Assembly: GCA_020723385.1 (NCBI GenBank)
Contig: DYIZ01000017.1
Span: 1-58,839 of the forward strand
Direction of reading: 5' to 3'
Length of the DNA: 58,839 bases
Source: Candidatus Aquidulcis sp.
GTDB lineage: Bacteria > Chloroflexota > Anaerolineae > Anaerolineales > UBA4823
Shown piece after piece: positions 14,062 through 27,816 of this stretch. Within the stretch, counting starts at the first letter, position 1; every line of letters begins with the position of its first letter. A program made the position numbers and the translations under genes. Below the pieces are notes generated by a model that ran no database searches, was not told where the DNA came from, and worked only from the letters and a program-made list of their open reading frames with translations.

Positions 14062-14507
14062 GACGATATTTGTGGTTGTTCTTTTTGCTGGCGGCGGCTG
14101 CCGCCGTCTTTTTGGGAATCATCGGATTCAAGGCGTTCCGTGAGGCGAGCGTGATCGTCGAGTGGAGCACCGCCAGCGAGCTGGACACGGTGGGCTTCAA
14201 TGTCCTGCGCGGCGATGGTCCCGATGGGCCGTTCGCCCAGATCAATGATCAACTCATCCTGACCCAGGGTGATTCGCTGACCGGGAGTGATTATTCGTTT
14301 ATAGATAGAGGTGTAAAAGCGGGACTAACTTATTATTATCTGCTCGAAGATGTTGATGCCGGCGGTGCGACCAATCGCAACGGGCCAATCGAAGTCAAAG
14401 CCGAAGCTGGCGGGCGCGCCGAGCTTGGGCTGGCGGCCATCCTGGTTATCTTTTCAGTGGTCGGTATTTTGATGGTCCGGCATTCGCCCTCGGAGGCTGA
14501 GAATTAA
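14058..14507 (+). CDS. Membrane protein with one FN3-like module
   Basis: A 149-residue protein with an N-terminal signal or anchor (LWLFFLLAAAAAVFLGI), a single extracytoplasmic module (about 28-115) and a C-terminal helix (LGLAAILVIFSVVGILMV). The module pattern is W-S-T-A-S-E-L-D-x-x-G-F-N-V-L-R, then an aspartate/tyrosine-rich strand and L-T-Y-Y-Y-L-L-E-D-V-D. The same pattern occurs in the anti-sigma factor at 15939 and in the proteins at 23753 and 24608. It is translationally coupled to the histidine kinase (ATGA overlap) and is followed after 2 bases by the HprK-like kinase. No enzyme motif is seen. A role as the extracytoplasmic partner of the kinase or of the exported cluster proteins is inference. 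Confidence 0.8.
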   Translation: MRRYLWLFFLLAAAAAVFLGIIGFKAFREASVIVEWSTASELDTVGFNVLRGDGPDGPFAQINDQLILTQGDSLTGSDYSFIDRGVKAGLTYYYLLEDVDAGGATNRNGPIEVKAEAGGRAELGLAAILVIFSVVGILMVRHSPSEAEN

Positions 14508-14509
14508 AT

Positions 14510-15301
14510 ATGTCTGTTTGCGGTTTGACGATTGCAGGGATATCAGTGGCTGTCGAGACGGAGGATTCCGGCCTGACCGAAAAACTTCGGCTTCGATACG
14601 AAGATTTCCCACTTATCGGTGATCCCCAATTAATCGCCAGAATCAACTGGACGAATCTGGGGCGGCGACAACCAACCCCGGCTCCTGAAACTGTATTCGA
14701 TGGCGATCAATTGGCGTTCAAAACGCCGGGGTTCAGCGGTCTCATTGATGTCAATCGGCTGTGCGCTTGCCTCGATCTAATCTCTACCAGCCCGGTAGAA
14801 GATGTTGATTATTTTTTACGCCTGGCCTACAGTTTATTGGTTTTCAGCCGAAAAGGAATCATGTTTCACGCTGCGGGCATTGTTCGAAATGGCGCAGCTT
14901 ATCTATTTTTTGGGCATTCAGGCAGCGGTAAAACGACTGTGGCTCGACTATCCACAGGCGCTAAAGTATTGAATGATGATTTGGTTGTATTGCTGCCCGA
15001 CTCTGAGAAGTGGAAAGTGTTCAGCACACCATTTTGGAATCCAGATCAAGTCAGGCCTTCCATCGGTAGTGCGCCCCTCGCCGGTCTGTATCGCCTGGTA
15101 CAGGATCGGAATGTGTACACTGAAGCCATGCGGCCAGCCCAAGCATTAGCCGAGTTTGTCGCCAGCGTTCCTGTCATACCGACTTCCCCGCGCCTTAATC
15201 GCGTTTTGGTTGAGAGAGGTCTGTCCCTCCTGGCTTCGATCCCGGCTTGCCGGTTGCACTTCTTACCCGATGCCTCGTTTTGGCAGGTGGTAGAGGCTTG
15301 A
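14510..15301 (+). CDS. HPr kinase-like P-loop kinase (HprK-related, peptide-system type)
   Basis: A 263-residue kinase related to the C-terminal domain of HPr kinase/phosphorylase. Walker A is GHSGSGKT at residues 135-142, followed by the paired acidic motif LNDDL (D155-D156) that HprK-type kinases use for metal and catalysis. The N-terminal 130 residues do not look like the HprK N domain. No HPr or PTS gene is present. In other bacteria HprK homologues sit in lasso-peptide clusters and phosphorylate a serine of the precursor, and HprK-related kinases also pair with PqqD proteins. With a PqqD gene at 24319 and a candidate precursor at 18792, a peptide or protein substrate is more likely than HPr. 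This is inference. Confidence 0.83.
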   Translation: MSVCGLTIAGISVAVETEDSGLTEKLRLRYEDFPLIGDPQLIARINWTNLGRRQPTPAPETVFDGDQLAFKTPGFSGLIDVNRLCACLDLISTSPVEDVDYFLRLAYSLLVFSRKGIMFHAAGIVRNGAAYLFFGHSGSGKTTVARLSTGAKVLNDDLVVLLPDSEKWKVFSTPFWNPDQVRPSIGSAPLAGLYRLVQDRNVYTEAMRPAQALAEFVASVPVIPTSPRLNRVLVERGLSLLASIPACRLHFLPDASFWQVVEA

Positions 15302-15316
15302 TCCTCAAGTAGAACC

Positions 15317-15946
15317 GTGAAGAATTTGGCGCCACGAATTTTGAACCTAACCACGCCCATTTACGACTATAGTGTTAAGATGGATCATCTGCCGACGGCT
15401 GTTGGCGATCTCGAATTGTTGTCACGAACCGCCAACGACGACAAAACGGCATTTGATGAGTTATATCAACGCTACAGCCGACCTCTATACCATTACTTGC
15501 TCAGATTGATTCATGAACAACATGTTGCTGAGGATCTTTTACAAGAAGTATTCATTGCCGTTTGGCAGGGAGCACGTGGCTATCGAGGCCAGGCACAGGT
15601 AAAAACCTGGCTGTATCGAATCGCCCACAATCGAGCCATCTCATGGCTTCGACGCTACAAGGTAACCACGATTTTAGAGGATGTCGTCGAGACTTCTCGC
15701 GAGGTTGGACCAGAAGAATCAGCTATCGGCTCCTGGCAAAACGACCAGATCAGGCAGGCTGTCAACCAACTACCGTTCAAACATCAGGAAGTGCTGGAAC
15801 TTGCTTTTGTTCACGAACTAAGCTATACCGAAATCGCGAATGTGATTGGATGTCCGGTTGGTACAGTGAAAAGCAGGATGAGTTATGCACTTCGAATGCT
15901 CAATGGCCTGTTAAACAGAATGAACTTTACCCCCCTTCATGAGTAG
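15317..15946 (+). CDS. ECF-type RNA polymerase sigma factor
   Basis: A sigma-70 family regulator of about 209 residues (188 if ATG 15380, MDHLPTAVGDLELL, is the true start; neither has a strong ribosome site). Region 2 is clear: AFDELYQRYSRPLYHYLLRL, then EDLLQEVFIAVWQGA and the -10 recognition part RGQAQVKTWLYRIAHNRAISWLRR. Region 4 (about 145-200) has QAVNQLPFKHQEVLELAFVHELSYTEIA and the helix-turn-helix IGCPVGTVKSRM. It directs polymerase to a small regulon and is held inactive by the product of the next gene, whose start overlaps its end by 8 bases. Its target promoters probably include this cluster, but no promoter motif was deduced. Confidence 0.93.
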   Translation: MKNLAPRILNLTTPIYDYSVKMDHLPTAVGDLELLSRTANDDKTAFDELYQRYSRPLYHYLLRLIHEQHVAEDLLQEVFIAVWQGARGYRGQAQVKTWLYRIAHNRAISWLRRYKVTTILEDVVETSREVGPEESAIGSWQNDQIRQAVNQLPFKHQEVLELAFVHELSYTEIANVIGCPVGTVKSRMSYALRMLNGLLNRMNFTPLHE

Positions 15947-16652
15947 ATGTGACGTTATGATACTTAAACAGATCATCTCAAAATCTAAAGGCTACCGCCG
16001 ATTATTACCTTGGTATATCGCTGGACGATTGTCTCCCAAAGAGAACCATTTGGTTGAGCAACAGTTAATCCAAGATTCTCAACTGCGGAGACAAGCCGAA
16101 ACAATTCAGGTTTATTATTCGGCGCTGAAGGAACAACCGATGGAAGCCCCCGCTCCCATTGTTCGGCAGCGGATTATGGCGGCGATCAATCGAGACACCG
16201 TTGCAGCCAGGCGAACCAACCCTCTGGTGCTCTACCCGGCAGCCTTGATGTTGGCCTTTGCCGTTTTGATTGTCTTATGGATGGTGATCCGGCCCGGAAA
16301 TGTACTCGAATGGACCGTTACCGATCTGGGCATCCAAGAATTCCAGGTATATCGTGCGCCATTGGGCGGCAGCGATTTCGAATTGGTGAGCACAATCCCC
16401 GTTCGATCGCAGAAGGTGCAATATACCTTTGTAGATGCATTGTTGATCCCGGGCCAAAGTTATACTTACCTTGTGAAAGGCGTTCAAAGTTCTGGGCAAT
16501 CTTTATTGAGCCAGACCATCGCTGCGGATGGAGCCGATGCGCTCATGGGACAAATTCTATTAATTTTGACGAGCCTGGTTGTCGGCTATTTGGGCGTCAC
16601 TCTCGTCCAAAACTTTCCATTGACTGTGCGGAAGGAATTATCCCCGGTATAA
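15939..16652 (+). CDS. Anti-sigma factor with extracytoplasmic FN3-like module
   Basis: A 237-residue membrane protein overlapping the sigma gene by 8 bases, the usual layout of a cognate anti-sigma factor. Residues 1-90 are cytosolic with the helical anti-sigma pattern LLPWYIAGRLSPKENHLVEQQL. The zinc-binding H-x3-C-x2-C signature is absent. A helix (about 94-112, YPAALMLAFAVLIVLWMVI) crosses the membrane. The outer part (115-200) is the cluster's FN3-like module (EWTVTDLGIQEFQVYRAP, then SYTYLVKGV). A second helix lies near the end. The same module in exported cluster proteins suggests it senses them or a shared partner. That link is inference. Confidence 0.8.
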   Translation: MSRCDVMILKQIISKSKGYRRLLPWYIAGRLSPKENHLVEQQLIQDSQLRRQAETIQVYYSALKEQPMEAPAPIVRQRIMAAINRDTVAARRTNPLVLYPAALMLAFAVLIVLWMVIRPGNVLEWTVTDLGIQEFQVYRAPLGGSDFELVSTIPVRSQKVQYTFVDALLIPGQSYTYLVKGVQSSGQSLLSQTIAADGADALMGQILLILTSLVVGYLGVTLVQNFPLTVRKELSPV

Positions 16653-16752
16653 CGGTTAGAAGATTTCATCCTTTGCCTGAATCTACCAACCATTTTCTGG
16701 TCAGCAGATTCGATCAAACTAAGTTTTTCGAAAGCATCCTACGGAGGCCAAA

Positions 16753-18438
16753 ATGAAAATCGTACGTTCCGCCTTACTCATTTCGATCATCATGAGTATG
16801 CTTTTCACGGGGGTTGCATTCGCTGAGCCTGAAAGCCCCGAAGCTCTCTATTCGTTTACAATGACACCGGCATCTGGCACATATCCAGGTCAGGAGATTA
16901 CCTTCAACGTTGACTGGAGTACCAATACCCAATCGGCTGCCGGAGATGGCATAGCGATATGCGTTTACTACGACGAGGCTTATTCCAATACCCCAGGACG
17001 AACAGACGATGGCTTTACCGGCGCGCCAGCCGACATTCTCTCACTTGGCTTTGGCGATGCTTACACTAAAATTGGCCCGTCAGCTTTGAGTCTGGGCGCT
17101 GGCCCTGGCAGCGGCGCTACTCAAGCCTGCCCGGCGTGGACTGGGAAATATGTGACCGGATATTATATTGACGAAGCAGGCAACGGAGGGTCATTAGGCG
17201 CGAGTGATCCAACGGATGCGCTCGAATTCACGATCATTTCACCTCGCCTTGTTGCCGATGAGAGTTTTACGGTAAGGCAGCGTAAAAATGTTGATGATTC
17301 TAATGACAATATCTGGTCGGCGATTGGCTTCAAAACCGCGAATCTGGATGTCAATCCAGCGGCTTTACTGGTTTTTGTTGGCACACCCGTGCAATGCGGT
17401 GCGAATGTGCCCTGCTACGATACGGTCGAAAATGGCATAGTTTACGTGGCAGATGGTGGCGCGGTCCGCTTGATGGGCGCCTCGACCGGCAGTGTCGTTG
17501 TTGATCGCGGAATGACCATTCAAGGTGGCGCATCGGCTGCTTCGATCACTGGCGACGGCGACCCCACCATCGAGGTTGATGCCAGTGGTGAGACGGTTAT
17601 CATTCGGGATTTGCAGATCAATGCCGCTTCTGGCCAGCCAGCGATCAGTGTACTCGCTGGCGATGCGGTGGTCAAAGGGAATACCATTGATGCCAACACA
17701 TTGACGGCTTTTTCATACACTGCCGGCACGCTGCATGCCTATGCCAACAATGTGACTGACCTGGGCACAGCCTCCGATACCACCTCCACGAATGTCAATC
17801 TCAAACACAATTGGTGGGGAGATGCCTGGACATCGCCGACTGGTCTCGTTGCCTCCGATTGGGCTGCCCGCCTGGGAGCGCCAATGGTCAAGTGGGCAGA
17901 TGGCGTCAATAGTGTCAACCTGGATGGCGCTACCCTGAGTGGAGGTACAGGCACAGTCGCCATTGTCAGTCATGACCGCAGTAACCCCCCCTTCGGCAAT
18001 GGCATTACGCCGTTCCAAAGCTCGATGTGTGGGCCGTATCTGGATTACTTCCTGGTCAGCGGTTCAGGCTCCTGGACAGTTGCCGCGCCGGTGGATGATA
18101 GCGCCGCCTGTAATTTGAATACCCGTGATCCTGGGGTAATTTACATGGTCAACACCATTGCTGAGTGTACTCCCTCGACGAATACCGCTTGCTGGGATCG
18201 GGTCACTACTGGCGTCAGTGTCAGTGGGCAGACGATCTACGCGGCTGGCATCTCAACAGCTCAGTTGGGCGGCACGCAATTTGTTGTTGGCTCAACGAGT
18301 GGCAGTGATCCAACCGTGATTCAGTTACGCAGCATGTCTGCTACATCAGCCCGCAACACCTGGCTGCCAATGATCCTCCTCGTCTCAGCGCTCCTTTTAG
18401 GAGGCAGCGGTTTATACCTTGCCCGTAAGGCGAGATAA
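16753..18438 (+). CDS. Exported beta-helix-like protein with C-terminal membrane anchor
   Basis: A 561-residue exported protein with a clear AGGAGG-like site (GGAGG at 16743) and signal peptide (LLISIIMSMLFTGVAFAEP). Residues 30-190 form a beta-sandwich-like region with a calcium-type acidic pattern. Residues 230-380 resemble right-handed parallel beta-helix rungs (GNTIDANTLTAFSY, NNVTDLG, LKHNWWGDAW). Paired cysteines (CGANVPCYD, CTPSTNTACWD) occur. The end is LPMILLVSALLLGG, a membrane helix, then RKAR. That arrangement resembles a cell-wall or membrane sorting tail, with the LP dipeptide in place of a full LPxTG. It may be the structural surface protein served by the cluster. No catalytic motif is recognised. 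Confidence 0.75.
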   Translation: MKIVRSALLISIIMSMLFTGVAFAEPESPEALYSFTMTPASGTYPGQEITFNVDWSTNTQSAAGDGIAICVYYDEAYSNTPGRTDDGFTGAPADILSLGFGDAYTKIGPSALSLGAGPGSGATQACPAWTGKYVTGYYIDEAGNGGSLGASDPTDALEFTIISPRLVADESFTVRQRKNVDDSNDNIWSAIGFKTANLDVNPAALLVFVGTPVQCGANVPCYDTVENGIVYVADGGAVRLMGASTGSVVVDRGMTIQGGASAASITGDGDPTIEVDASGETVIIRDLQINAASGQPAISVLAGDAVVKGNTIDANTLTAFSYTAGTLHAYANNVTDLGTASDTTSTNVNLKHNWWGDAWTSPTGLVASDWAARLGAPMVKWADGVNSVNLDGATLSGGTGTVAIVSHDRSNPPFGNGITPFQSSMCGPYLDYFLVSGSGSWTVAAPVDDSAACNLNTRDPGVIYMVNTIAECTPSTNTACWDRVTTGVSVSGQTIYAAGISTAQLGGTQFVVGSTSGSDPTVIQLRSMSATSARNTWLPMILLVSALLLGGSGLYLARKAR

Positions 18439-18459
18439 TTGTTTGAATATTTGCATCGG

Positions 18460-18487
18460 CCCCTCGAGGATTTATCTCCTCGAGGGG
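18460..18487 (+). terminator. Probable terminator hairpin after the beta-helix gene
   Basis: Perfect 11-bp stem CCCCTCGAGGA / TCCTCGAGGGG with a 6-base loop, 22 bases after the stop codon. The trailing U-tract is weak (CTTATCAATT), so termination may be incomplete. Confidence 0.65.
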
Positions 18488-18714
18488 CTTATCAATTAAT
18501 GGCACACTTGCCTTTGGTGGGGAATATCCCAGATTTGGAGATTCCTCCCGTTGGAAACAGTAACGCCTCATTGAGTTAGCTCAATATTATTGGGAAAATG
18601 CCTATAAATTCAAACTAAACCCAATTTCATTAGCATTCGATTATGTCATAATACTGGTACTAAAGTTCTATTGACACCTGAGTTGGGAATGACAATTTTG
18701 GTAGCAATTATGAC

Positions 18715-18743
18715 TTGCGAAGTCCAGAAAAATAGGATAGAAT
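18715..18743 (+). promoter_or_regulatory. Candidate sigma-70-type promoter for the small peptide gene
   Basis: TTGCGA at 18715-18720 and TAGAAT at 18738-18743 with a 17-base spacer, about 49 bases before the peptide start. The 350 bases after the preceding terminator are AT-rich and otherwise hold no gene. A second TTGACA at 18671-18676 lacks a good -10 partner. Confidence 0.5.
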
Positions 18744-18791
18744 AACAAAACACTATTTGGTAATAATCAGGAATCTTTGGAGGAGACCCAT

Positions 18792-18947
18792 ATGATGACA
18801 CAACTTATCGTGAACCAGCCGACTGACCTTCGAAAACCGTACTCGAAGCCAGAAATTATTCATGAATTGGATCTGGAGACACGCGCCGGCTCAACACTTC
18901 CTGGCTTCGTTGATCCGCTCGATCCGGCTTCTGGCCTGCAAGAATAA
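18792..18947 (+). CDS. Candidate modified-peptide precursor, 51 residues (lasso-leader-like motif)
   Basis: Short gene with a strong ribosome site (GGAGGAG, 18779-18785); ATG 18792 or the adjacent ATG 18795. The translation holds KPYSKPEIIHELDLE at residues 15-29, then TRAGS and a Pro/Gly/Asp-rich tail ending GLQE. The YxxPxI core (Y17, P20, I22) matches the leader motif that PqqD-like RRE domains bind in lasso peptide precursors. If the core starts at G33, D41 is its ninth residue, the spacing of a Gly1-Asp9 lasso ring. Thr is at -3 and not the usual -2. No cyclase is nearby, so ring formation is unsupported. The HprK-like kinase, PqqD gene and C25 peptidases flank it. It could also be a small structural or signalling peptide. 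Confidence 0.75.
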   Translation: MMTQLIVNQPTDLRKPYSKPEIIHELDLETRAGSTLPGFVDPLDPASGLQE

Positions 18948-18975
18948 ACTTTATAATAATTTTATAGTTGATCGG

Positions 18976-19076
18976 GGCCAGGTGGGCCTCAGTGCTAGCG
19001 AGAATGACTCATTATTGGGAAATTCTCGCCCACGAGAGAACCCCTGGCCTTCCGCTGTTAATAACGGACTTTTATT
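18976..19076 (+). terminator. Long structured RNA and weak terminator between peptide and peptidase genes
   Basis: Nested stems: GGCCAGG (18976) with CCTGGCC (19043), GTGG (18982) with CCAC (19030), and GCGAGAAT (18998) with ATTCTCGC (19022). A smaller hairpin around 19051-19066 is followed by CTTTTATT. It would let the short peptide message be abundant while passing limited read-through into the C25 gene at 19091. Confidence 0.5.
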
Positions 19077-19090
19077 GATATAGGTGCGCG

Positions 19091-22000
19091 ATGAAAAGAC
19101 ACATGTTGATGCGATGGGTTTCGTTGATTGTACTCCTTTCAGCTTTGCTCAATTCGTCAGGGCCGGTTGAAGCAAAACGATCTCAACCAGGGGGTTTCCG
19201 GGTCGCCCAATCCAACGAGCGAGGAATCATCTTGAGTTTGAGCGTACCTGTGGAGCAAATTGCATTTCAACAGGTTGAAAACTTTGATAAGGTCACATTG
19301 CCGGATTTCGATACGACAACTGATCCGGGCAAGCCGCAGTTGCCGGTCTATCACGCGCTGATTGGAGTTCCTCCAGGCGCGCAGGTGTCCTTATCAATTC
19401 TTCAAGATGTCACTCAGATATTTCCTGGAAAATACAATCTATCGCTTGCGCCTGCGCCTGCGCCGCTGAAAGAAGATTTGACTCCGGGTCAGTGGCAATC
19501 AGTTGTATCACCGCTCGTGGCTTCCACTGAAACTGTCTATCCTCCCAACCTGGCCGAAGTATCTCGTGACGCCTGGCTGCGGGATTGGCATTTCGTCCGG
19601 CTTTCGCTTTACCCCCTCCAATATGATGCCCTACAGGGCCGGGTAACACTTCATTCCTATCTCGAAGTATCGGTGGATTTCATTGGAGGCGATAGTCTGG
19701 CGGTTTCAGCGACCCCCTCCGGTCAGGATTCGTCGGATCCCATAGATTCTATGATGCAGGAATCCCTTCTTAATTATGATGTCGCACGAAACTGGAAGGG
19801 ACAAAAGCCCGTGTCCAATCTCGAGCAAACCGCCGTCAGCGGTCAGCGCTATAAAATCACTGTTGACCGGGATGGCCTGTATCGTGTGACTTATGCCGAT
19901 CTACAGAGCGCCGGGATGAACGTGGCTGCAGTTGACCCGCGTACCTTTCATCTTTCGAGCCAGGGGGACGATGTGTCAATTTATGTCGCCGGGGAGGATG
20001 ACGGGAGCTTCGACCCGAGCGATTACATCATCTTCAACGGCCAACAATTCTATGGCGACCGGCTTGCCGCCGCCCATCCCGATGAGGATTTGAATTGGAT
20101 TACTTACACCGAACAGCTCACAAACGGTGTTTATACCTACTGGCATCCGCAGTTCAACGCCACGATGGCAGAAAAGTACACCAACGACAATGTGTATTGG
20201 TTGACGGAGGGTGGCGCCCCGGGTCCCCGTATGGCGGAAGTAAATGGAGACCCGACCGGAAGTACCGCACCCACGCCCGCTGTGTACCGAACAACCGTCC
20301 ACGCTGAGCGTTCGACCCGCTGGTGGACGTGGCATTTCACGGATGAAGATACCTGGTATTGGGAAGTCGTTACCAATAATACAACCCGCTTCTATACGAC
20401 GACACTGACATCGGTTGCCTCTGGCGCTTATACGGCAACGATCCGGGGAGAGGTGGTTGCCATGAACACCAATGACAACCTGCCGAACGATCATCATACC
20501 CGCGTGAGCATTAATAATGATCCTCAGCCGGTGGATGAGGCATATTGGGAAGGGAAATCGCGCTATCGTTTCGAAGGGCAGGCTCCGCAATCGAGCCTTG
20601 TCGAAGGCGTCAATTCGCTGAAATTCACTTATCTGCCGGATGGCGCTACCCCGCCTCCCATTTATTTCGACTGGTTCGAAATCGAGTACGATCGCCGCTT
20701 TTTAGCCGCCGGTAACCAGATTGCCTTTACCGGAGAGCATACCGGCGAATGGCAATATGCCCTGGGCAATTTCAGCTCTGCGTCTGTCGAAGTTTACGAT
20801 GTGACCGATCCCCTGGATCCGATGCGGGTGCTGAACCCAGTGATAACCTCTTCCGGGGGCGTTTATACCGCTACCTTCGAGATCAATCAGGCCGCGGGTT
20901 CGCAGTATCTCGCTGTGGCCCCTCAGGCCATCCTGTCGCCGAAAGCCATCACTTTCTACGATCCCCCCGATCTCAAATCGGCTTCCAACGGCGCCGACTA
21001 CATCGTGATCACCCATCCGGCGTTTCTCACACCGGCCCAGGCGTTGGCAGATTTTCATACTGCTCAAGGGCTGCGTACCCTCGTCGTAGATATCAACGAT
21101 GTTTTCAATGAGTTCGGTGAAGGCATCTACCACCCGATTGCGATAAAGAATTTCCTGGCGTATGCTTATTCCGTTTGGCAGTCTCCTGCACCAGTTTACG
21201 TGGTTCTGATCGGTGACAGTACCTGGAATTTCAAGGTCTTCAACCCGGCGCGCTATGGCTCAGAGCCAACCTATCTGCCCGCCAACCTCGGGTTCGTGGA
21301 TCCCTGGCAGGGTGAGGTAGATGCTACCAATCAACTCGCCACGATCGTTGGCAGCGATCCGCTTCCCGATGTTTATATGAGCCGCATTCCGGCTTCCAGC
21401 GTTGCTGAGGCGACTGCTGTCGTGAACAAGATTATTGGTTACGCAGGCCAGCCATCCCAAGACTGGCAACGCAATCTGGCTTTCGTGTCCGATAATATCC
21501 CCGATGATGCTGGCGATTTCCAGGCTTCTGCCGAGGCTTTGATCAATAATTTCGTGGCCCCCGGTTTTCAGCCGAATCGAGTTTATGAAACCGATTACTG
21601 CCCGCCGACGGATCCGCCGACGCCTTGCCCCGCAGCAACTCATGCCCTTACCGAGACTTTCAACGTCACTGGCACTCTCCTGATGTCATTTGTCGGTCAT
21701 GGAGCGCCTCAACGTTGGACGCATGAAAACCTGCTCACGAATGATGTTGCTGTACAACTGACCAATGGCGGCCAACTGCCAGTTATTCTCTCAATGACTT
21801 GTATGGATGGCTATTGGATCGGCCCGCATGGACCGCAATATGTTCAAGGGCCATCCCTCGTCGAGGCGCTGATTAACGGGGCCGATAAAGGTGCTGTGAG
21901 CACATTCTCCCCTGGCGGATTGGGCCTGTCTACCGGGCACGATGCTTTGGCCGATGGTTTCTACGGTGCGATCTTTGATACCGGCATCTGGCAGCTTGGC

Positions 22001-23740
22001 CCGGCAACCGTGGCGGCCCGCCTGGGCGTCTTTGCCACCGGGAATGATGGCGACCTGATCAATACCTACAATATCTTCGGCGATCCGGCTTTGCGGCTGC
22101 ATAGTCCGTATGATTTGACACTGAATCCGCCCTTAGCCGCCCAGTCAGCTATGACCGGAGATGTAGTAACTTATACACTTTCTCTTGCCAATACGTCTGC
22201 TATTACCGATACCTTCGATGTGACTTTGGGCAGCCATGCCTGGACAACCTCTGCCCCGGCGGCTGTGGGTCCGCTGCCTCCAGGTGATTCGGTTTCTTTG
22301 CTTGTCGAGGTGCAAATTCCCACGGGTCTGTCTGGCGGTGCAACCGATGTGGTACAGGTAACTGCCACTTCGCGCGGCGATATCAGCAAAACCGCCAGCG
22401 CGCAATTGACAACCACTGCCGATGTCTACGGTTTATCGTTACGCCCGGCCGTTGACTCTCGGACGGCGTTACCTGGCGCAACGGTAACTTATACACTGCA
22501 ACTCACCAACACCAGCAATACCGCGGATACCTTCGACATCGCTGCCGGCGCGCACACCTGGCCCGTTAATGCGCCCATCTCGACAGGGAGCCTCGGTCCG
22601 GGAGACAGCGCAGAGTTGATTGTCACGGTTGAAATCCCGATCTCGGCGCAGGATTACCAATCCGAGACCCTGGTCATTTCAGCCACTTCCCAGGCTGACC
22701 CCCTCCGGTTGGCGACCTCGACATTGACAACAACCACCCGGTTGTATGATGTTTCTCTGGCTCCAACCCAAATTAGTCAGAGTGGATTGCCCAACACACA
22801 AATTGTCTATCACCTTCAATTGACCAATACAGGCGGATATAGCGATTCCTTTGATTTGGATGTGGCTGGAAATCAGTGGGCGACCACCATCATCCCGCCA
22901 TCGCTTGGGCCGTTACTGCCTGATCAAGCCGCGCCTGTAACGGTAACGGTGAACATCCCATCGGGGGCTTTGGGCGGCGTAACCGATGTCGTGACTGTCA
23001 CCGCCGCCTCAACCGGCTATCCCGCATTACAAGCCCAATCTATACTCATGACAACCTCCAATGTTTTTGGGGTGGACGTTACCTCGGCTGCAACCGCGCA
23101 AACTGGCGCGCCCGGCAGCTCCGTCTTTTACAATCTGCGCGTGTGGAACCTGGGCAGCGCCTCGGATCAATTCGATATTTCGATGGGAACTTATGCCTGG
23201 CAGACTGACGCGCCATTATTCGTCGGACCGATTGCACCCGGGGGCAGTGAATCGATCACCGTCATGGTGACGATCCCTTCGGGTGCGGTTTCTGGCTCAA
23301 CGGATTCGGTCACCCTGAATCTGGCCTCTGCTGGCGATCCGAACCAGGTTGCCAACATCACCCTGACCACCACGGCTCGGCCTTATGGTGTTACGGTGAC
23401 GGCTGATACGACCAGCCAGGATGGAAACCCTGGCGGCGAAGTGATATACTCCCTCCAGGTGACGAATATCAGCGTTTACACCGACACATTTACGGTGCTG
23501 GTGAGCGGTCCGGGCTGGCCGACCAACCCCGACACACTGACCATTGGCCCGTTGGGTCCGGGGGATGCGGTGACATTACTGGTCACGGTGCAAATCCCTG
23601 CCGATGCGCTTTCCGGCTCGTCTGATGTGGCGACGGTCAAAGTTGTCTCGTGGGGCTATGGCAGCCAATCGGCGCAGGTGGTGTTGACTACAACGGCTTT
23701 GATCTCCAATCGAGTATACTTGCCGATTGTCATCCGATAG
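19091..23740 (+). CDS. Large secreted C25 (gingipain-like) cysteine peptidase with five NEW3-like repeats
   Basis: Exported 1549-residue peptidase of clan CD, family C25. A signal peptide (residues 1-28) is followed by a C25 propeptide-like region (to about 240), a beta domain with GLYRVTYADLQSAG, and the catalytic domain (about 630-1000). The catalytic histidine is H870 in FVGHGAPQRW and the nucleophile is C904 in SMTCMDGYW, the expected HG and C pair. YVVLIGDSTW near 700 matches the Rossmann-like core. From about 1006 there are five repeats of about 100 residues, each with G-x-x-V-x-Y-x-L-x-x-x-N and LGPGDS strands (NEW3/CARDB-like). The chain ends NRVYLPIVIR. It is 144 bases downstream of the small peptide gene. 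Substrate and any sortase-like role are unknown. Confidence 0.9.
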   Translation: MKRHMLMRWVSLIVLLSALLNSSGPVEAKRSQPGGFRVAQSNERGIILSLSVPVEQIAFQQVENFDKVTLPDFDTTTDPGKPQLPVYHALIGVPPGAQVSLSILQDVTQIFPGKYNLSLAPAPAPLKEDLTPGQWQSVVSPLVASTETVYPPNLAEVSRDAWLRDWHFVRLSLYPLQYDALQGRVTLHSYLEVSVDFIGGDSLAVSATPSGQDSSDPIDSMMQESLLNYDVARNWKGQKPVSNLEQTAVSGQRYKITVDRDGLYRVTYADLQSAGMNVAAVDPRTFHLSSQGDDVSIYVAGEDDGSFDPSDYIIFNGQQFYGDRLAAAHPDEDLNWITYTEQLTNGVYTYWHPQFNATMAEKYTNDNVYWLTEGGAPGPRMAEVNGDPTGSTAPTPAVYRTTVHAERSTRWWTWHFTDEDTWYWEVVTNNTTRFYTTTLTSVASGAYTATIRGEVVAMNTNDNLPNDHHTRVSINNDPQPVDEAYWEGKSRYRFEGQAPQSSLVEGVNSLKFTYLPDGATPPPIYFDWFEIEYDRRFLAAGNQIAFTGEHTGEWQYALGNFSSASVEVYDVTDPLDPMRVLNPVITSSGGVYTATFEINQAAGSQYLAVAPQAILSPKAITFYDPPDLKSASNGADYIVITHPAFLTPAQALADFHTAQGLRTLVVDINDVFNEFGEGIYHPIAIKNFLAYAYSVWQSPAPVYVVLIGDSTWNFKVFNPARYGSEPTYLPANLGFVDPWQGEVDATNQLATIVGSDPLPDVYMSRIPASSVAEATAVVNKIIGYAGQPSQDWQRNLAFVSDNIPDDAGDFQASAEALINNFVAPGFQPNRVYETDYCPPTDPPTPCPAATHALTETFNVTGTLLMSFVGHGAPQRWTHENLLTNDVAVQLTNGGQLPVILSMTCMDGYWIGPHGPQYVQGPSLVEALINGADKGAVSTFSPGGLGLSTGHDALADGFYGAIFDTGIWQLGPATVAARLGVFATGNDGDLINTYNIFGDPALRLHSPYDLTLNPPLAAQSAMTGDVVTYTLSLANTSAITDTFDVTLGSHAWTTSAPAAVGPLPPGDSVSLLVEVQIPTGLSGGATDVVQVTATSRGDISKTASAQLTTTADVYGLSLRPAVDSRTALPGATVTYTLQLTNTSNTADTFDIAAGAHTWPVNAPISTGSLGPGDSAELIVTVEIPISAQDYQSETLVISATSQADPLRLATSTLTTTTRLYDVSLAPTQISQSGLPNTQIVYHLQLTNTGGYSDSFDLDVAGNQWATTIIPPSLGPLLPDQAAPVTVTVNIPSGALGGVTDVVTVTAASTGYPALQAQSILMTTSNVFGVDVTSAATAQTGAPGSSVFYNLRVWNLGSASDQFDISMGTYAWQTDAPLFVGPIAPGGSESITVMVTIPSGAVSGSTDSVTLNLASAGDPNQVANITLTTTARPYGVTVTADTTSQDGNPGGEVIYSLQVTNISVYTDTFTVLVSGPGWPTNPDTLTIGPLGPGDAVTLLVTVQIPADALSGSSDVATVKVVSWGYGSQSAQVVLTTTALISNRVYLPIVIR

Positions 23741-23752
23741 CCCGCAGGCTTC

Positions 23753-24169
23753 ATGAAGATTGTCCACCGGGTTCTCCCGATCCTCATCATGATTGTTGCA
23801 CTCCTGGCATTTGCCACGAGTGCACGCGCCAATGTGACGCTTGTCAGCTTCACGGCTGCTGCCGAAAACGATCATGTTCTCGTCGGGTGGGTCACCGCCT
23901 CCGAGTTGAATAACGCTGGGTTCAATCTTCATCGCAGCCTGTTGCCAGATGGCCCGTACCAAAATATCAGTGGTTTCATCGTCACCCAGAGCGACGGCTT
24001 TTCTGAAACAACTTATGAATTCCCAGACACTACGGCGGCGCTGGGTAACACATACTATTACAAACTCGAAAGCGTCAGTACGACGGGAGACTCGCAGTTC
24101 ACCGAGCCAATCTGGGTTGTCTATGCAAACGACGACAATCCTATATACTTGCCAATCATTCGCCGTTAG
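23753..24169 (+). CDS. Small exported FN3-like protein with YLP tail
   Basis: A 138-residue exported protein with signal peptide LPILIMIVALLAFATSARA and one FN3-like module: VLVGWVTASELNNAGFNLHRS, then FSETTYEFPDT and NTYYYKLESVS. It ends NPIYLPIIRR, a version of the tail found on the large C25 peptidase 12 bases upstream and on other secreted proteins here. It is highly similar, including at the DNA level, to the first 115 codons of the gene at 24608, so the two are tandem paralogues with the PqqD gene between them. It may be an accessory binding subunit of the peptidase. No catalytic residue is seen. Confidence 0.82.
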   Translation: MKIVHRVLPILIMIVALLAFATSARANVTLVSFTAAAENDHVLVGWVTASELNNAGFNLHRSLLPDGPYQNISGFIVTQSDGFSETTYEFPDTTAALGNTYYYKLESVSTTGDSQFTEPIWVVYANDDNPIYLPIIRR

Positions 24170-24221
24170 ATATCTGCTCTTTGGAAATCATCGTAACAAA
24201 TCAGCATATCTGCGGCGGGAC

Positions 24222-24248
24222 GTAGGTCGGATTGCCAATCCAACCTAC
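24222..24248. repeat. 27-bp palindromic repeat, copy 1
   Basis: Core GTCGGATTGCCAATCC with outer arms GTAG/CTAC; one C/A mismatch in the stem. Related copies lie at 27858-27884 and 51425-51451. The rest of the 150-base gap before the PqqD gene shows nothing else. Confidence 0.8.
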
Positions 24249-24318
24249 CGCTGGCGGTATGGCATGGTAATTGCCTAAGAGGCTAGATTTCAGTAGCCAA
24301 TACAATAGGATCAGGATT

Positions 24319-24594
24319 ATGATTTCGATCAATGCCACCCCGCTCCACAACCCGGAAGTCGTTGGACGCACTGTCGAAGGTGAGACAGTGTTGGTGCTGC
24401 CCGGTAAAGGCGAAGTCAAAGTTTTGAACGAGCTTGGCTCGCAAATTTGGACACTGGCCGATGGAACACATACTGTGGCCGAGATTGCGGTGCTATTGAG
24501 TGAGTCCTACGCGGTTGATCGTCTCCAGGCCGAGGCAGACGTTCTGGAATTCGTCGCTTTACTCGAAGAGAAGGGGGTTCTTTCCCTCGTGTGA
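24319..24594 (+). CDS. PqqD family protein (RRE-type peptide-binding domain)
   Basis: A 91-residue PqqD-like protein, start ATG 24319. PqqD domains are RiPP recognition elements that hold the leader of a precursor peptide and present it to a modifying enzyme. The family pattern is visible: an N-terminal strand (VVGRTVEGETVLVLP), EVKVLNELGSQIWTLADG, the winged-helix part HTVAEIAVLLSESY, then VLEFVALLEEKGVL. It is a free-standing domain, as in lasso peptide B1 proteins, not fused to a radical SAM enzyme. In this cluster the likely client is the YxxP-containing peptide at 18792 and the likely partner is the HprK-like kinase at 14510. Both links are inferred. It sits between two FN3-like paralogues. 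Confidence 0.9.
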   Translation: MISINATPLHNPEVVGRTVEGETVLVLPGKGEVKVLNELGSQIWTLADGTHTVAEIAVLLSESYAVDRLQAEADVLEFVALLEEKGVLSLV

Positions 24595-24607
24595 TTGATC
24601 GGGTGAT

Positions 24608-25588
24608 ATGAAAGCTCTGCTCCGGCTTCTCCCCATTGTTGTCCTGATTGTTGTGCTGCTGGCTTTTGTCACGACTGCTCGCGCCAATGTGACACTGGTC
24701 AGCTTTACTGCCGTTGCCCAAACCGGACAAATCCTCGTTCAATGGGTCACCGCCTCCGAGCTGAACAACGCTGGCTTCAATCTTCATCGCAGCCTGTCGC
24801 CGGATGGCCCCTTCCAAAATATTAGCGGCTTTATCGTTACCGAGAGTGATGGTTTTTCTGAAACTCATTATGACTACCCAGACACCTCGGCGATACTGGG
24901 CAACACCTACTATTACAAACTCGAAAGTGTGGATACCTCAGGCAATTCCGAATTTACCGCCCCGATTTTCGCTGTTTATGGCACACAGGTCGCGGCGAGT
25001 ACTGCTACTGCCACCGCCACACGCACCCGAACTCCTACGCCAACTACAACCGCCACCATTCCCGCTGGGAATCCTACCAATACGGCCACAGCAACCTCTC
25101 CCCTAAATAGCCCAACTCCGACATCGTCAGCTACCGCCACTGCCACATCTGCTACTTTCACACAGACGCCAACTTCCACTGCAACCGGTGTTCCCGGCCA
25201 GCCCACCCCCTCACGAACGGCCACGCGTACTGCCACTATCGCCGGGTCAACGCCCAATATCAGCCCATCCCCTACCACCGGGACTTCGACAGCGGCTGCA
25301 ACGAGCGCTACTGCGACAGACTCCACCCCGCAAGGCCCCACCCGCACCGCTACCCTGATCCCCTTGCCTTCGTTGACTTTGATCTTCCCGGCTTACTCAC
25401 CGACTCTATCCCCGACAGTTGCACCCTCCGCCACACCCACTGCCACTCACCTGCCTACGGCGACGCCCACATTGGTTGGGCCAGGAGGTGTTCCTTCACG
25501 CATCTACACCCTGATCGGAGCGGCGGCTTTGTTGTGGATACTCCTGGGGGGATTCCTGCTCTTCTTCTTGCGTAGAATGACTCGCTGA
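24608..25588 (+). CDS. FN3-like surface protein with mucin-like Thr/Pro stalk and C-terminal anchor
   Basis: A 326-residue exported protein: signal peptide (LLPIVVLIVVLLAFVTTARA), one FN3-like module (about 25-115, nearly identical in pattern to the gene at 23753), a long Thr/Ser/Pro/Ala-rich stalk (about 120-285), and a C-terminal helix with basic end (AAALLWILLGGFLLFFLRRMTR). The stalk would span the wall and is a likely O-glycosylation target; a GT-C glycosyltransferase follows two genes on. The helix plus RR-x-x-R tail resembles a sorting or stop-transfer signal. The stop codon overlaps the start of the C25 lipoprotein gene (TGATG), so the two are coupled. Confidence 0.82.
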   Translation: MKALLRLLPIVVLIVVLLAFVTTARANVTLVSFTAVAQTGQILVQWVTASELNNAGFNLHRSLSPDGPFQNISGFIVTESDGFSETHYDYPDTSAILGNTYYYKLESVDTSGNSEFTAPIFAVYGTQVAASTATATATRTRTPTPTTTATIPAGNPTNTATATSPLNSPTPTSSATATATSATFTQTPTSTATGVPGQPTPSRTATRTATIAGSTPNISPSPTTGTSTAAATSATATDSTPQGPTRTATLIPLPSLTLIFPAYSPTLSPTVAPSATPTATHLPTATPTLVGPGGVPSRIYTLIGAAALLWILLGGFLLFFLRRMTR

Positions 25589-27816
25589 TGGTACCTCGCC
25601 TGACTCTGCCCCGATTGTTGGTGTTCTTTGAACGCGCCGCATTGTTGCTTGTGGTAACGGCCTTATTAGCCGCATCCTGCAACCGGACGACCGATACGCC
25701 CTCACCGGAGCCGCAGCTTACTTCGGGGGCGGTCAAGCTGGCGGTGAAAGAGGCTGGCCTTTACTCGGTTACATCGTCTGATCTGCGGGCGGACGCGCCC
25801 TCCCTGGCTGCCGCGGACCCCGCCCGGCTGGTGTTGTCTCTGCGCGGGCAGCCGCAGCCTTTGTGGGCGGAAGGTGAACCAGGGGATTTCACTTTGCGCT
25901 TCTACGGCCAATCGCCCGATTCTCGCTATACCGCCCAATCCAACTACTGGCTCGAAATCAAGCCGACCGGTGAAATCACCCCAACCACGGCCTGGGAACA
26001 GCCCGCCGGCGCGTCAGTGTCCACCCCGGTTGACGCCTGTCTGGCGATGGAACGGTTGGAGCAAAACCTGGTTTACGCCCCTCAAGCCGAATCCGGCGAC
26101 CACTGGTTCTGGCAATCCCTGGCTGCCCCCAAAAACCAGCCCTTCGAGGTGACGTTGGCCCACGCGGCAGCCGGAGCCGGGCGCGTGCGCGTCGCCGTAT
26201 GGGCCAGCACCTCCGCGCCGGTCAATCCCGATCATCATTTGCAGGTTCTCATCAACGGCCAGGTGGTCGCCGACGAAAGCTGGGATGGCAACGGGCGGCG
26301 TACAATCGAAGCCGATGTGCCGGCTGGCGTGCTGGTTGACGGAGCGAACGCGGTAGAGCTGGCGCTGCCGGGAGATACCACCGCCCCGGCGGACATCGTT
26401 TTCGTGGATTGGATCGAGATCGAATATCCCCGCACGGCGGAGGCGGTCAATGACCGGTTGGACTGCGCCGCGGGCGAGTCTCCCCTGAAACTGACTGGCT
26501 TCGATGATGAGATATTTCTACTGGATATAACCGACCCCTACGTCCCGGTGCGCCTCACCGGATTGCAACCGGGCGATGGTGATGTAATTTTCCAGGGTGA
26601 GCCAGATCATCGCTATCTGGCCGCGGGGTCAAAGGGGATGCTGAAACCGGTGGAGATCGCCGCCCCCAGGCTTTCCCCCGATCTGCGCGCCGCTTCCAGC
26701 GCCGCCGATTACCTCGCCATCGGGCCGGATGACTTGCTCGCGCCGCTCGATCCCTTGCTCGCCTTGCGCACATCCCAGGGCTTGCGCGTGATGTCTATCC
26801 CGCTGCAAGCCATCTACGATCAGTTCAATGACGGCTTTCCCGAGCCGGAAGCCATTCAAAAATTCCTGGCTTTTACCCATCAATCCTGGCAGACGGCTCC
26901 CCGCTATGTGATGCTGGTCGGCGACGCCACCTACGATCCGCGCGGCTACCTCGCTCCGCCAGATGCTAACCGTCTGCCAACCTTTTTTATCCAAACAGTT
27001 TTCGGCGGCGAGACCGCCAGTGACGTGCTGTTTGCCCAGCTCGACGAGGACGGTTTACCGGATGTCGCCATCGGGCGCGTCCCGGCGCGTTCCGCGGCGC
27101 AGGTGCGGTCGCTGGCGACGAAGCTGCTGGCCTACGAGCAGGCTGCTCAGAATACCGAGCAGGCTGCTCAGAATACCGAGCAGGCTGCTCTGGACAGCGA
27201 GCAGGCCGCCGGCGGAGAATCGTGGACCCGGCGGGTGCTGGCAGTCTCCGATGGGAACGACACCAGCTTCGCCGCCGACGCGCAGACCTTTTTAGATCAA
27301 TTGCCAGACGGGTTCGAGTCCACTTTGTATTCTCCGGCAGCGGGCGCGGTGGATGCGAACGCCGAAATCACAAAACACCTGGACGAGGGCGTCTTTTTTA
27401 TGGCGTACTTTGGGCATGGCAGTATGGTCATGTGGGGCAAAGACCGCCTGTTTTCAACGGAGGACGCGGCCAAACTGAGCAACACTCATTTGCCGTTGGT
27501 GATGAATATGAGCTGCCTGACCGGGCTGTTCACCCACCCGAAGCAGGAATCGCTCGCCGAAGTGCTGCTTTTCCAGCCTGATGGCGGTGCAGCCGCGGTG
27601 CTGGCGCCCACCAGCCTGACGCTGCCCACCGACCAGGCGATGCTCTCCGGCCCCCTGGCGCAGGCCCTCGGGCAGGATTCTGCCGCAACCGTGGGCGAAT
27701 GGCTGCTTCAGGCGCAGCGTCAAACTCCGCAAAATCAAGATGGCGTGCGCGAGGTGCTGCTGACCTTCCTCCTGTTCGGCGACCCGGCGCTGAGGCTGGC
27801 GCAGTCTACACCGTAG
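25588..27816 (+). CDS. C25 (gingipain-like) cysteine peptidase, lipoprotein
   Basis: A 742-residue clan CD peptidase. The N terminus has a hydrophobic segment and a lipobox-like end LLAASC, so the protein is probably lipid-anchored outside the membrane. A C25-type beta region holds GLYSVTSSDLRAD. The catalytic domain (about 370-730) has YVMLVGDATYDPRG, H610 in YFGHGSMVMWG and C643 in NMSCLTGLF. Unlike the paralogue at 19091 it has no NEW3 repeats and no YLP tail, which makes it a candidate membrane-bound processing enzyme. PorU, the sortase of the type IX system, is also a C25 protein, but no type IX gene is present here. A 7-residue tandem repeat lies at about 517-541. Confidence 0.88.
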   Translation: MVPRLTLPRLLVFFERAALLLVVTALLAASCNRTTDTPSPEPQLTSGAVKLAVKEAGLYSVTSSDLRADAPSLAAADPARLVLSLRGQPQPLWAEGEPGDFTLRFYGQSPDSRYTAQSNYWLEIKPTGEITPTTAWEQPAGASVSTPVDACLAMERLEQNLVYAPQAESGDHWFWQSLAAPKNQPFEVTLAHAAAGAGRVRVAVWASTSAPVNPDHHLQVLINGQVVADESWDGNGRRTIEADVPAGVLVDGANAVELALPGDTTAPADIVFVDWIEIEYPRTAEAVNDRLDCAAGESPLKLTGFDDEIFLLDITDPYVPVRLTGLQPGDGDVIFQGEPDHRYLAAGSKGMLKPVEIAAPRLSPDLRAASSAADYLAIGPDDLLAPLDPLLALRTSQGLRVMSIPLQAIYDQFNDGFPEPEAIQKFLAFTHQSWQTAPRYVMLVGDATYDPRGYLAPPDANRLPTFFIQTVFGGETASDVLFAQLDEDGLPDVAIGRVPARSAAQVRSLATKLLAYEQAAQNTEQAAQNTEQAALDSEQAAGGESWTRRVLAVSDGNDTSFAADAQTFLDQLPDGFESTLYSPAAGAVDANAEITKHLDEGVFFMAYFGHGSMVMWGKDRLFSTEDAAKLSNTHLPLVMNMSCLTGLFTHPKQESLAEVLLFQPDGGAAAVLAPTSLTLPTDQAMLSGPLAQALGQDSAATVGEWLLQAQRQTPQNQDGVREVLLTFLLFGDPALRLAQSTP
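27136..27210 (+). repeat. 21-bp tandem repeat inside the C25 lipoprotein gene
   Basis: Two exact and two partial copies of a 21-base unit beginning GAGCAGGCTGCTCAGAATACC, encoding EQAAQNT. It inserts a flexible, Gln/Ala-rich loop into the peptidase domain and can expand or contract without breaking the frame. Confidence 0.85.

Follow-up and report, generated by a model that had tools for sequence, protein, structure and literature searches.

A candidate system for surface-protein maturation and sorting in Anaerolineae combining PorU-like peptidases, tailed client proteins and a RiPP-type peptide module

The gene set described here suggests an undescribed route for finishing and anchoring surface proteins. 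On balance, we consider it somewhat probable that it represents a maturation and sorting system of Anaerolineae, composed of PorU-like peptidases and tailed client proteins, into which a RiPP-type module of peptide, PqqD protein and kinase has been recruited. Comparative genomics showed that peptide, tail and cassette are linked, and from the sequences we infer every chemical step proposed below. Tail-bearing genomes were shown to carry a predicted peptide with the motif LETRAGS, whose gene usually adjoins those of the kinase or the C25 enzymes or immediately follows that of a client, and to have one putative processing cassette made up of C25a, an S26 peptidase, PqqD, a beta-domain protein and C25b, together with an HprK-fold kinase. 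If the proposal is true, the tail is a sorting signal of the CTERM type whose candidate enzyme belongs to none of the known families of sortases, exosortases and rhomboids, a PorU-like enzyme is active in a phylum without known type IX secretion (T9SS), and a RiPP precursor/PqqD/kinase module is tied to surface-protein maturation, the first such link known to us. The tail, peptide and enzyme profiles predict specific client C-termini, as well as phosphorylation at one invariant Ser. Searches of the literature on the system, on SynChlorMet together with PqqD, and on C25 or CTERM in Chloroflexi returned nothing that describes it.

The window, i.e., the whole analysed stretch of 58,839 nucleotides, was initially annotated as containing a strand-uniform block with a kinase, an ECF/anti-sigma pair, a peptide, a PqqD protein and two C25 peptidases, and all of these genes were indeed found on the + strand. 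The first gene of the locus encodes a membrane protein of 149 aa (14058..14507, +), in which a beta-domain of ~95 aa (EWSTASELDTVGFNVLR; its 'FN3-like' label is a judgement by eye) is enclosed by an N-terminal and a C-terminal helix. It precedes the gene of the HprK/PEPCK-fold kinase (263 aa; 14510..15301, +), and the two genes form an adjacent pair at loci L049, L050, L128, L129, L130, L143, L198 and L209-L212. An ECF sigma factor (15317..15946, +; TIGR02937, 113.5 bits, cut-off 42.9) and an anti-sigma factor (15939..16652, +), which has a membrane helix and an outer beta-domain matching in type those of the 149-aa, 138-aa and 326-aa proteins described here, are followed by a secreted tailed protein of 561 aa (16753..18438, +; tail at 18310-18435), the 51-aa peptide (18792..18947, +; MMTQLIVNQPTDLRKPYSKPEIIHELDLETRAGSTLPGFVDPLDPASGLQE) and the secreted C25 peptidase C25a (19091..23740, +; PF01364, 248.7 bits). 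Further downstream lie the genes for a secreted beta-domain protein of 138 aa with the C-terminus YLPIIRR (23753..24169, +), a stand-alone PqqD-type RiPP recognition element (RRE; 24319..24594, +; PF05402, 62.3 bits, cut-off 23.4), a 326-aa protein with a signal sequence, a beta-domain, a Thr/Pro-rich stalk and a C-terminal membrane helix (24608..25588, +), and the PorU-like C25 peptidase C25b (25588..27816, +; PF01364, 244.2 bits). A Pfam search gave no match for the 138-aa and 326-aa proteins. The gene of the tailed protein and those of the three beta-domain proteins, which are small and secreted or membrane-bound, had been overlooked in the initial annotation.

A set of about ten genes is common to distant Chloroflexota. 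The order and strand of the peptide-C25a-PqqD-(beta-domain protein)-C25b cassette are kept in at least 12 genomes from several Anaerolineae families, with the HprK-like kinase usually, and the ECF/anti-sigma pair often, beside it. Cassette orthologues of PqqD are present in all complete copies. An S26 signal peptidase is encoded between C25a and PqqD in nearly all other copies; the window has none, and the gene of the 138-aa protein occupies the position that the peptidase has in most of them. The grouping is more than chance, as at least 11 further genomes, representing several families, have the same set.

For the phylogenetic profile, 16 peptide-positive genomes were compared with 16 peptide-negative genomes of the same class, these 32 genomes being phylogenetically non-independent and the positive ones larger on average. 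The tail was found in 16/16 positive and 1/16 negative genomes (6/6 versus 1/16 when only the positives outside the seed set of the tail model are counted; Fisher p 9e-5). Orthologues of C25b (at least 564 bits) were detected in 12/16 versus 0/16 genomes (non-seed genomes, 4/8 versus 0/16, p 0.007), and the kinase subtype (at least 279 bits) in 13/16 versus 0/16 (non-seed genomes, 5/8 versus 0/16, p 0.001). Most peptide-positive genomes without a C25b or kinase match are fragmented or incomplete assemblies; in G743, a MAG of unreported completeness, four peptides and four tails were detected, and neither C25b nor the kinase is matched there. The refuting condition named in the initial annotation, homologues normally located apart from HprK-like and C25 genes, applies by gene position in about half of the cases, but not at the level of whole genomes.

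The peptide belongs to a family without a name, with 32 distinct members and the consensus Y..P.[IV]..E[LMI].LETRAGS. The leader Tyr and Pro are invariant in 31/31 members aligned at the YxxP motif; a Ser/Thr at the ETRAG-S position is also invariant. The peptide is small, acidic and devoid of a signal sequence, and the 51-aa member of the window matches no NCBIfam or Pfam model. Peptide genes occur in up to six copies per genome. One directly precedes C25a in most cassettes, whereas about half are found off-cassette: 15 out of 33 lie on the same strand as a tail gene and within 1 kb of it (chance p ~4e-38), and, with two pairs seen by eye, 17 out of 33 adjoin the gene for a secreted tailed protein, mostly 11-90 nt downstream of that gene. 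Because about half of the peptide genes are off-cassette and paired with tailed proteins, surface-protein maturation is likelier than a free peptide. The latter was the view of the initial annotation, extended here to a free-standing RiPP: the kinase would modify it, a C25 enzyme would cleave it once exported, and it would be set free as a signal or antibiotic, with the tailed proteins merely co-regulated or acting as receptors. It agrees with the peptide gene lying directly ahead of C25a in most cassettes, with the usual RiPP-cluster look that a radical SAM/SPASM-like enzyme gives to distant relatives, and with the phosphorylation of lasso peptides by the HprK-like kinases ThcoK and SyanK (PMC10368454). 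Nevertheless, multi-copy peptides, of which about half each stand behind one client gene, fit a client partner better than a diffusible product, and the PorU-like C25b is conserved beside C25a; we regard a free-standing RiPP as unlikely.

It appears quite improbable that the peptide acts unmodified in the cytoplasm, as a chaperone, an inhibitor or a translation-coupled regulator of C25 enzymes and clients, with PqqD and the kinase serving otherwise. A small, acidic, signal-less peptide encoded beside a protease or client would suit such a role, and C25 enzymes are expected to require restraint; however, the YxxP leader and ETRAGS are invariant across distinct families and, with a dedicated PqqD, have the look of an RRE-bound precursor, and C25a possesses its own propeptide domain. 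A YxxP leader combined with PqqD and a kinase follows RiPP logic (PMC10368454), and a PqqD protein scoring above the PF05402 cut-off near a YxxP-leader precursor is the arrangement of RRE-dependent RiPPs.

The kinase has the P-loop GHSGSGKTT and an NDDL motif, and its H120, P-loop G135-T143 and D156-D157 are invariant in nine homologues. The AlphaFold model (pLDDT 91.8) best matches the PDB folds of PEPCK and HPr kinase, and the protein is the sole candidate for a peptide-modifying enzyme within the window. The YxxPx[IL] leader, stand-alone PqqD and HprK-like kinase are shared with paeninodin-type lasso clusters, and the window peptide on its own would allow a Gly1-Asp9 ring. In contrast to the fixed 7-9 residue ring of lasso peptides, the spacing between Gly33 and the following Asp differs among members of the family. 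The lasso leader protease (transglutaminase-like, PF13471) has no match in the whole genome, and no Asn-synthase cyclase is encoded in the window, the genome matches being a 490-aa frame (contig C9) and a weak one (C152), in agreement with the initial annotation. The lasso reading was rejected on account of the variable position of the ring acceptor (7-9) and the lack of both lasso enzymes.

PqqD and an HprK-like kinase also characterize SynChlorMet (Scm)/HPr-rel-A cassettes, and ScmC (TIGR04249) is the best, albeit weak and sub-threshold, NCBIfam match of the kinase. Divergent relatives in G121 and G184 have a radical SAM enzyme as SynChlorMet does, and at the distant loci L047 and L196 a radical SAM/SPASM-like enzyme accompanies PqqD, kinase, peptide and C25. 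The window, however, lacks a radical SAM enzyme, and the cassette scores far below the cut-offs of all the equivalog models (ScmC, 33.7 versus 125; ScmD, 31.6 versus 100; HprK_rel_A, 22.5 versus 200). To our knowledge, SynChlorMet/HPr-rel-A cassettes contain neither a C25 pair nor tailed clients.

The shared tail at the end of secreted proteins consists of PTA[IV]xLxx[LF]xA, a membrane helix and RRK, as judged from a short alignment that is mostly membrane helix and has P, T, L and A as its only near-invariant positions. The 561-aa protein, encoded just upstream of the peptide gene, ends with PTVIQLRSMSA, a helix and RKAR (tail peptide PTAITLRDLTATT...), and its homologue in G507 is encoded between the kinase and ECF genes (L143, E 5e-25). 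The genome of the window has 12 tail matches, and 11 of the 12 proteins have no recognisable peptide alongside; a search upstream of the window's cassette genes and of this genome's tailed genes revealed no common ECF promoter motif, the best being present in 3/12, as in random sets. Neither tail nor peptide scored above cut-off in the known family models tried. The motif-helix-basic form of the tail is usual for sortase signals, and LPXTG-type models are matched weakly by the tails (for that of the window, srtB_target 16.9 versus 18.15 and LPXTG 13.9 versus 15.9, both sub-threshold). It is nonetheless very improbable that the tail is the substrate of a classical sortase (PF04203) encoded elsewhere, and that the C25 pair and peptide form a separate surface-protease system found in the same genomes by chance: tail genes adjoin those of the peptide and of the kinase (L142, L143, L209, L210), and the distribution of the tail tracks C25b and the kinase beyond surface proteins in general. 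A merely generic membrane anchor was rejected, as a single negative genome out of 16 is matched, weakly.

As in the PEP-CTERM/exosortase, rhombosortase and myxosortase systems, one tripartite C-terminal tail is common to many unrelated secreted proteins, and its profile matches that of a candidate enzyme, which would place the present system among CTERM systems in the broad sense. Neighbours of the tail genes encode 'choice-of-anchor K/Q' and PEP-CTERM-like surface proteins, and clients of the 'choice-of-anchor' kind are known from CTERM systems, which, like this tail, were found through phylogenetic profiling (PMC1569441, PMC3237569, PMC11980579). Unlike them, the system described here has its own motif, a companion peptide and, where those systems use an intramembrane protease, a soluble C25 enzyme. 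Exosortase (PF09721) was detected in 3/16 peptide-positive genomes, one match being weak; as it is missing from the genome of the window and from 13/16 positives, it was ruled out as the general tail-cutting enzyme.

C25a comprises a propeptide domain, Ig-like repeats and a C-terminal YLPIVIR, and contains the active-site motifs GHG and MTCMDG, while C25b has an N-terminal lipobox-like or membrane segment and invariant H610 and C643. Both peptidases are gingipain/PorU-like. PorU (6ZA2), which acts as the sortase of type IX secretion, is the closest solved relative of C25b by both sequence (E 3e-27) and fold (E 3e-27), although C25a (279.3 bits) and C25b (204.5 bits) remain below the cut-off (420) of the NCBIfam PorU model. 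We know of no T9SS in Chloroflexota. PorU cuts the C-terminal signal of secreted proteins and, in a transpeptidation reaction, attaches them to A-LPS (PMC8545088, PMC4560394), and an ECF sigma factor takes part in T9SS/PorU regulation (PMC7712824), as may be the case here. In contrast to the folded CTD of PorU clients, the present tail is a motif-helix-basic stretch, and the C25 enzymes occur together with PqqD, the kinase and the peptide. Each C25 protein is either secreted or anchored in the membrane, whereas PqqD and the kinase have no signal sequence; thus, C25 could act only after export. The initially annotated non-lasso system of YxxP peptide, PqqD, kinase and C25 is retained, with C25 as leader peptidase and the kinase as main modifier being no more than candidate roles.

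In the proposed sorting system, the tail would retain its client protein in the membrane; cleavage of the tail by a PorU-like C25 enzyme would then create a new end of the client, which the same enzyme would hand to an acceptor. The peptide would be made in the cytoplasm, held by PqqD via its YxxP leader, and probably phosphorylated by the kinase at the invariant Ser/Thr of ETRAG-S. After export, it may be cut by C25a, plausibly after R/K of LETR-AGS, and would serve client maturation as an acceptor, cofactor or licence, while the anti-sigma factor, through its outer domain, might report the state of the surface. No conserved dedicated peptide exporter was found, and an ABC exporter pair lies upstream only in two Ardenticatena-group genomes. 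It is a tentative and rather unlikely possibility that the peptide serves as a genetically encoded anchor or acceptor, each surface protein having its own RiPP-type peptide, primed in the cytoplasm by PqqD and the kinase and joined outside to the cut client C-terminus by a PorU-like C25 enzyme. Such an acceptor would be comparable to lipid II for sortases and A-LPS for PorU; we know of no sorting system in which a ribosomal peptide is the anchor or acceptor.

Two further genes downstream of C25b are doubtful members of the set. The membrane glycosyltransferase-like protein (27949..29607, +) has a homologue (44% identical) that adjoins C25b in G507 (L037) only, and the fused ABC-2 transporter, encoded on the opposite strand (29798..31675, -), has one (51% identical) directly upstream of the ECF-anti-sigma-peptide-C25a genes in G746 (L213).

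The block comprises 11 genes, all on the + strand and spanning positions 14058 to 27816 of the window, which is contig C87 of a 6.43-Mb genome with class-mates in the Chloroflexota class Anaerolineae. With gene starts set by a simple ORF caller, the genes encode, in order, a 149-aa membrane beta-domain protein (14058), an HprK-like kinase (14510), a pair of ECF sigma and anti-sigma factors, a 561-aa secreted protein, a 51-aa peptide (18792–18947), the C25 peptidase C25a (19091–23740), a secreted beta-domain protein (23753–24169), a PqqD protein (24319), a second, membrane-anchored beta-domain protein (24608) and the PorU-like C25 peptidase C25b (25588–27816). The gene names of the initial annotation agree with family searches: PqqD matched PF05402 at 62.3 bits, both C25 proteins scored about 245 bits, and the ECF factor exceeded its cut-off. 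A secreted protein on the − strand (31773–33281), 4 kb from the C25 pair, carries the caspase-like (clan CD) motifs GHG and ACYSG; by eye, it is not a C25 peptidase.

The peptide, with its LETRAGS motif, represents a genuine family. When the class was searched with a strict DNA pattern of the core, eight other genomes, from five genera, contained it (two additional matches, in G599 and G646, looked like chance), and a genome-wide scan revealed more Chloroflexota MAGs carrying it, giving 32 distinct members in total. In the 31 members that align over the motif, Y17, P20, L28 and A32 never vary, T30, G33 and S34 each differ in a single member, and position 31 is R in 28, K in two and S in one. 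The window copy had no match in Pfam, nor did any of 21 members in NCBIfam. The part beyond ETRAGS is short, Pro/Asp/Gly-rich and variable in spacing, so a fixed-size lasso ring is not the shared feature of these peptides. In a sample consisting mostly of MAGs, the peptide model produced 33 matches in 16 peptide-bearing genomes (positives) and one weak match (E-value, 0.008) in 16 peptide-less class-mates (negatives). In G478 (C160, 8951–10300), two LETRAGS genes have no recognisable tailed neighbour, and one of them has a phage tail-collar-like gene as its neighbour.

The initial annotation, which treated the block as a non-lasso peptide system, missed the link to client proteins: a large share of the peptide genes are located outside the cassette and immediately follow the gene for a large secreted protein. 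These clients are alike in little beyond their last ~45 residues, a tail in which PTA[IV]xLxx[LF]xA is followed by a hydrophobic helix and then by basic residues at the end; the 561-aa protein encoded immediately before the window peptide bears it. Family searches place several clients among the surface proteins of "choice-of-anchor K", "choice-of-anchor Q" or PEP-CTERM-like type. Proteins of this sort bear different sorting tails in different lineages. A tail model built from 14 sequences matched in 16/16 positives and in 1/16 negatives (weakly), including all six positives that gave no seed (G088, G451, G507, G443, G741 and G746; Fisher p = 9 × 10−5, which, like the p-values below, overstates independence because the class-mates are related). 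The genome of the window itself has 12 tail matches. Fifteen of the 33 peptide matches lie within 1 kb of a same-strand tail match, inspection of L202 and L203 added two further pairs, and the gap between peptide and client genes is 11–90 nt in most pairs.

The beta-domains of the proteins at 23753 and 24608 open with a strand, ANVTLVSFTA, similar to the tail motif (PTAVTLQSFTA or PTAVTLxxFxA), and the tail may mimic or replace this first strand. Many secreted proteins of these genomes end in a second motif, resembling [YF]LP[LIVA][VI]-x-R/K (in the window, C25a and 23753–24169; elsewhere L044:3992–4693, L050:10414–14142, L129:1667–5269 and others), which seems to be a further C-terminal signal in this phylum, separate from the tail.

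The window kinase falls below every curated family cut-off, while its confidently predicted structure (pLDDT 91.8) has, in a fold search, the PEPCK/HPr-kinase fold, and its His, P-loop and Asp-Asp are unchanged in nine relatives. The subtype (at least 279 bits) occurs in 13/16 positives versus 0/16 negatives (best negative, 134 bits) and, among genomes without a seed in the model, in 5/8 versus 0/16 (p = 0.001). C25b orthologues (at least 564 bits) follow the same pattern, with 12/16 versus 0/16 (best negative, 440 bits), and 4/8 versus 0/16 for genomes without a seed (p = 0.007). Truncation at contig edges or genome incompleteness explains most of the missing C25b and kinase genes: completeness is 73% in G489, the contigs of G467 and G744 stop within the locus or next to it, and the assemblies of G414 and G443 are in many small pieces. 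Only G743 clearly departs from the pattern, with peptides and tails and a match to neither C25b nor the kinase.

C25b has a membrane or lipobox-like N-terminus and a complete dyad (H610 and C643, invariant). Its nearest solved relative by sequence is PorU (E-value, 3 × 10−27; gingipains, 4 × 10−19 and weaker), and PorU is again the best match, over most of the length, to its predicted fold (pLDDT 77.8). Neither C25 protein reached the PorU equivalog cut-off, and hence neither is claimed to be PorU.

The cassette of C25, PqqD and peptide genes is conserved across relatives, as inspection of neighbourhoods revealed. The order is fn-kinase-ECF-antisigma-peptide-C25a-S26-PqqD-fn-C25b in L049 (fn, beta-domain protein; S26, S26-type signal peptidase), the same lacking the sigma pair in L050, fn-kinase-C25a-S26-PqqD-fn-C25b in L130 (G747), and fn-kinase-C25a-PqqD-fn-C25b in L129 (G478). 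In one genus group (L032 and the Ardenticatena record L034) it is ABC-ABC-peptide-C25a-S26-PqqD-fn-C25b, and in L037, L038 and L039 peptide-C25a-S26-PqqD-fn-C25b; L042, cut by a contig end, reads peptide-C25a-fn-PqqD-fn. In G746 (L213 and L128) and G745 (L198 and L127) the same gene set is split over two contigs, probably a single locus broken within C25a. The S26 protein belongs to the archaeal-type signal peptidases I (TIGR02228; in L037, 57 bits, over the cut-off); no S26 gene was found in the window, L042 or L129 copies. In the Thermoflexales-group records L037, L038 and L040, the genes directly upstream of the peptide or cassette are for exopolysaccharide (a Wzc-like kinase and a low-MW tyrosine phosphatase). 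PEP-CTERM systems often sit by exopolysaccharide genes too.

Where the kinase gene does not sit by the cassette, it occupies another locus of the genome (L143 in G507, L142 in G088, L209 in G467, L210 in G489, L212 in G451), mostly adjoining its beta-domain partner, and in L142, L143, L209 and L210 tail genes adjoin it. The window genome also pairs HprK-like kinases with S26-type signal peptidases at C205:24204–25847 and, together with PqqD, at C218:9157–13599.

Gene content, linkage and co-distribution tie together the peptide, tail, kinase and C25 enzymes; the steps of a mechanism can be proposed from family knowledge. In type IX secretion, PorU cuts the C-terminal signal off cargo proteins and attaches them to A-LPS (PMC8545088, PMC4560394). 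The client would be exported with its tail staying in the membrane, and a PorU-like C25 enzyme would cut it at the tail. PqqD would grip the peptide via its YxxP leader, the kinase would phosphorylate the peptide, most plausibly at the near-invariant Ser34, and C25a (gingipain-like, propeptide-bearing) may cleave it after R/K31. The tight one-to-one pairing of peptide and client genes argues for a stoichiometric role of the peptide toward its client, for example as acceptor, cap or licence.

In the divergent cassettes of G121 (L047, C17) and G184 (L196, C221), kinase, PqqD, a C25 enzyme and a YxxP- or WxxP-type peptide occur together with a radical SAM-like enzyme, encoded between PqqD and the peptide. 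The window branch looks like such a RiPP module minus the radical SAM enzyme. In G121, the peptide core has Cys residues, and the kinase has a nucleotidyltransferase-like gene next to it. The window genome additionally contains a separate RiPP-type cluster (C102:44290–52729; L044), SynChlorMet-like in appearance. It encodes several PqqD proteins, two radical SAM proteins, a fusion of PqqD with HprK and a Cys/Gly-rich precursor of 117 aa whose leader is MKYQKPIVMNL; another HprK-like gene there is truncated by the end of the contig.
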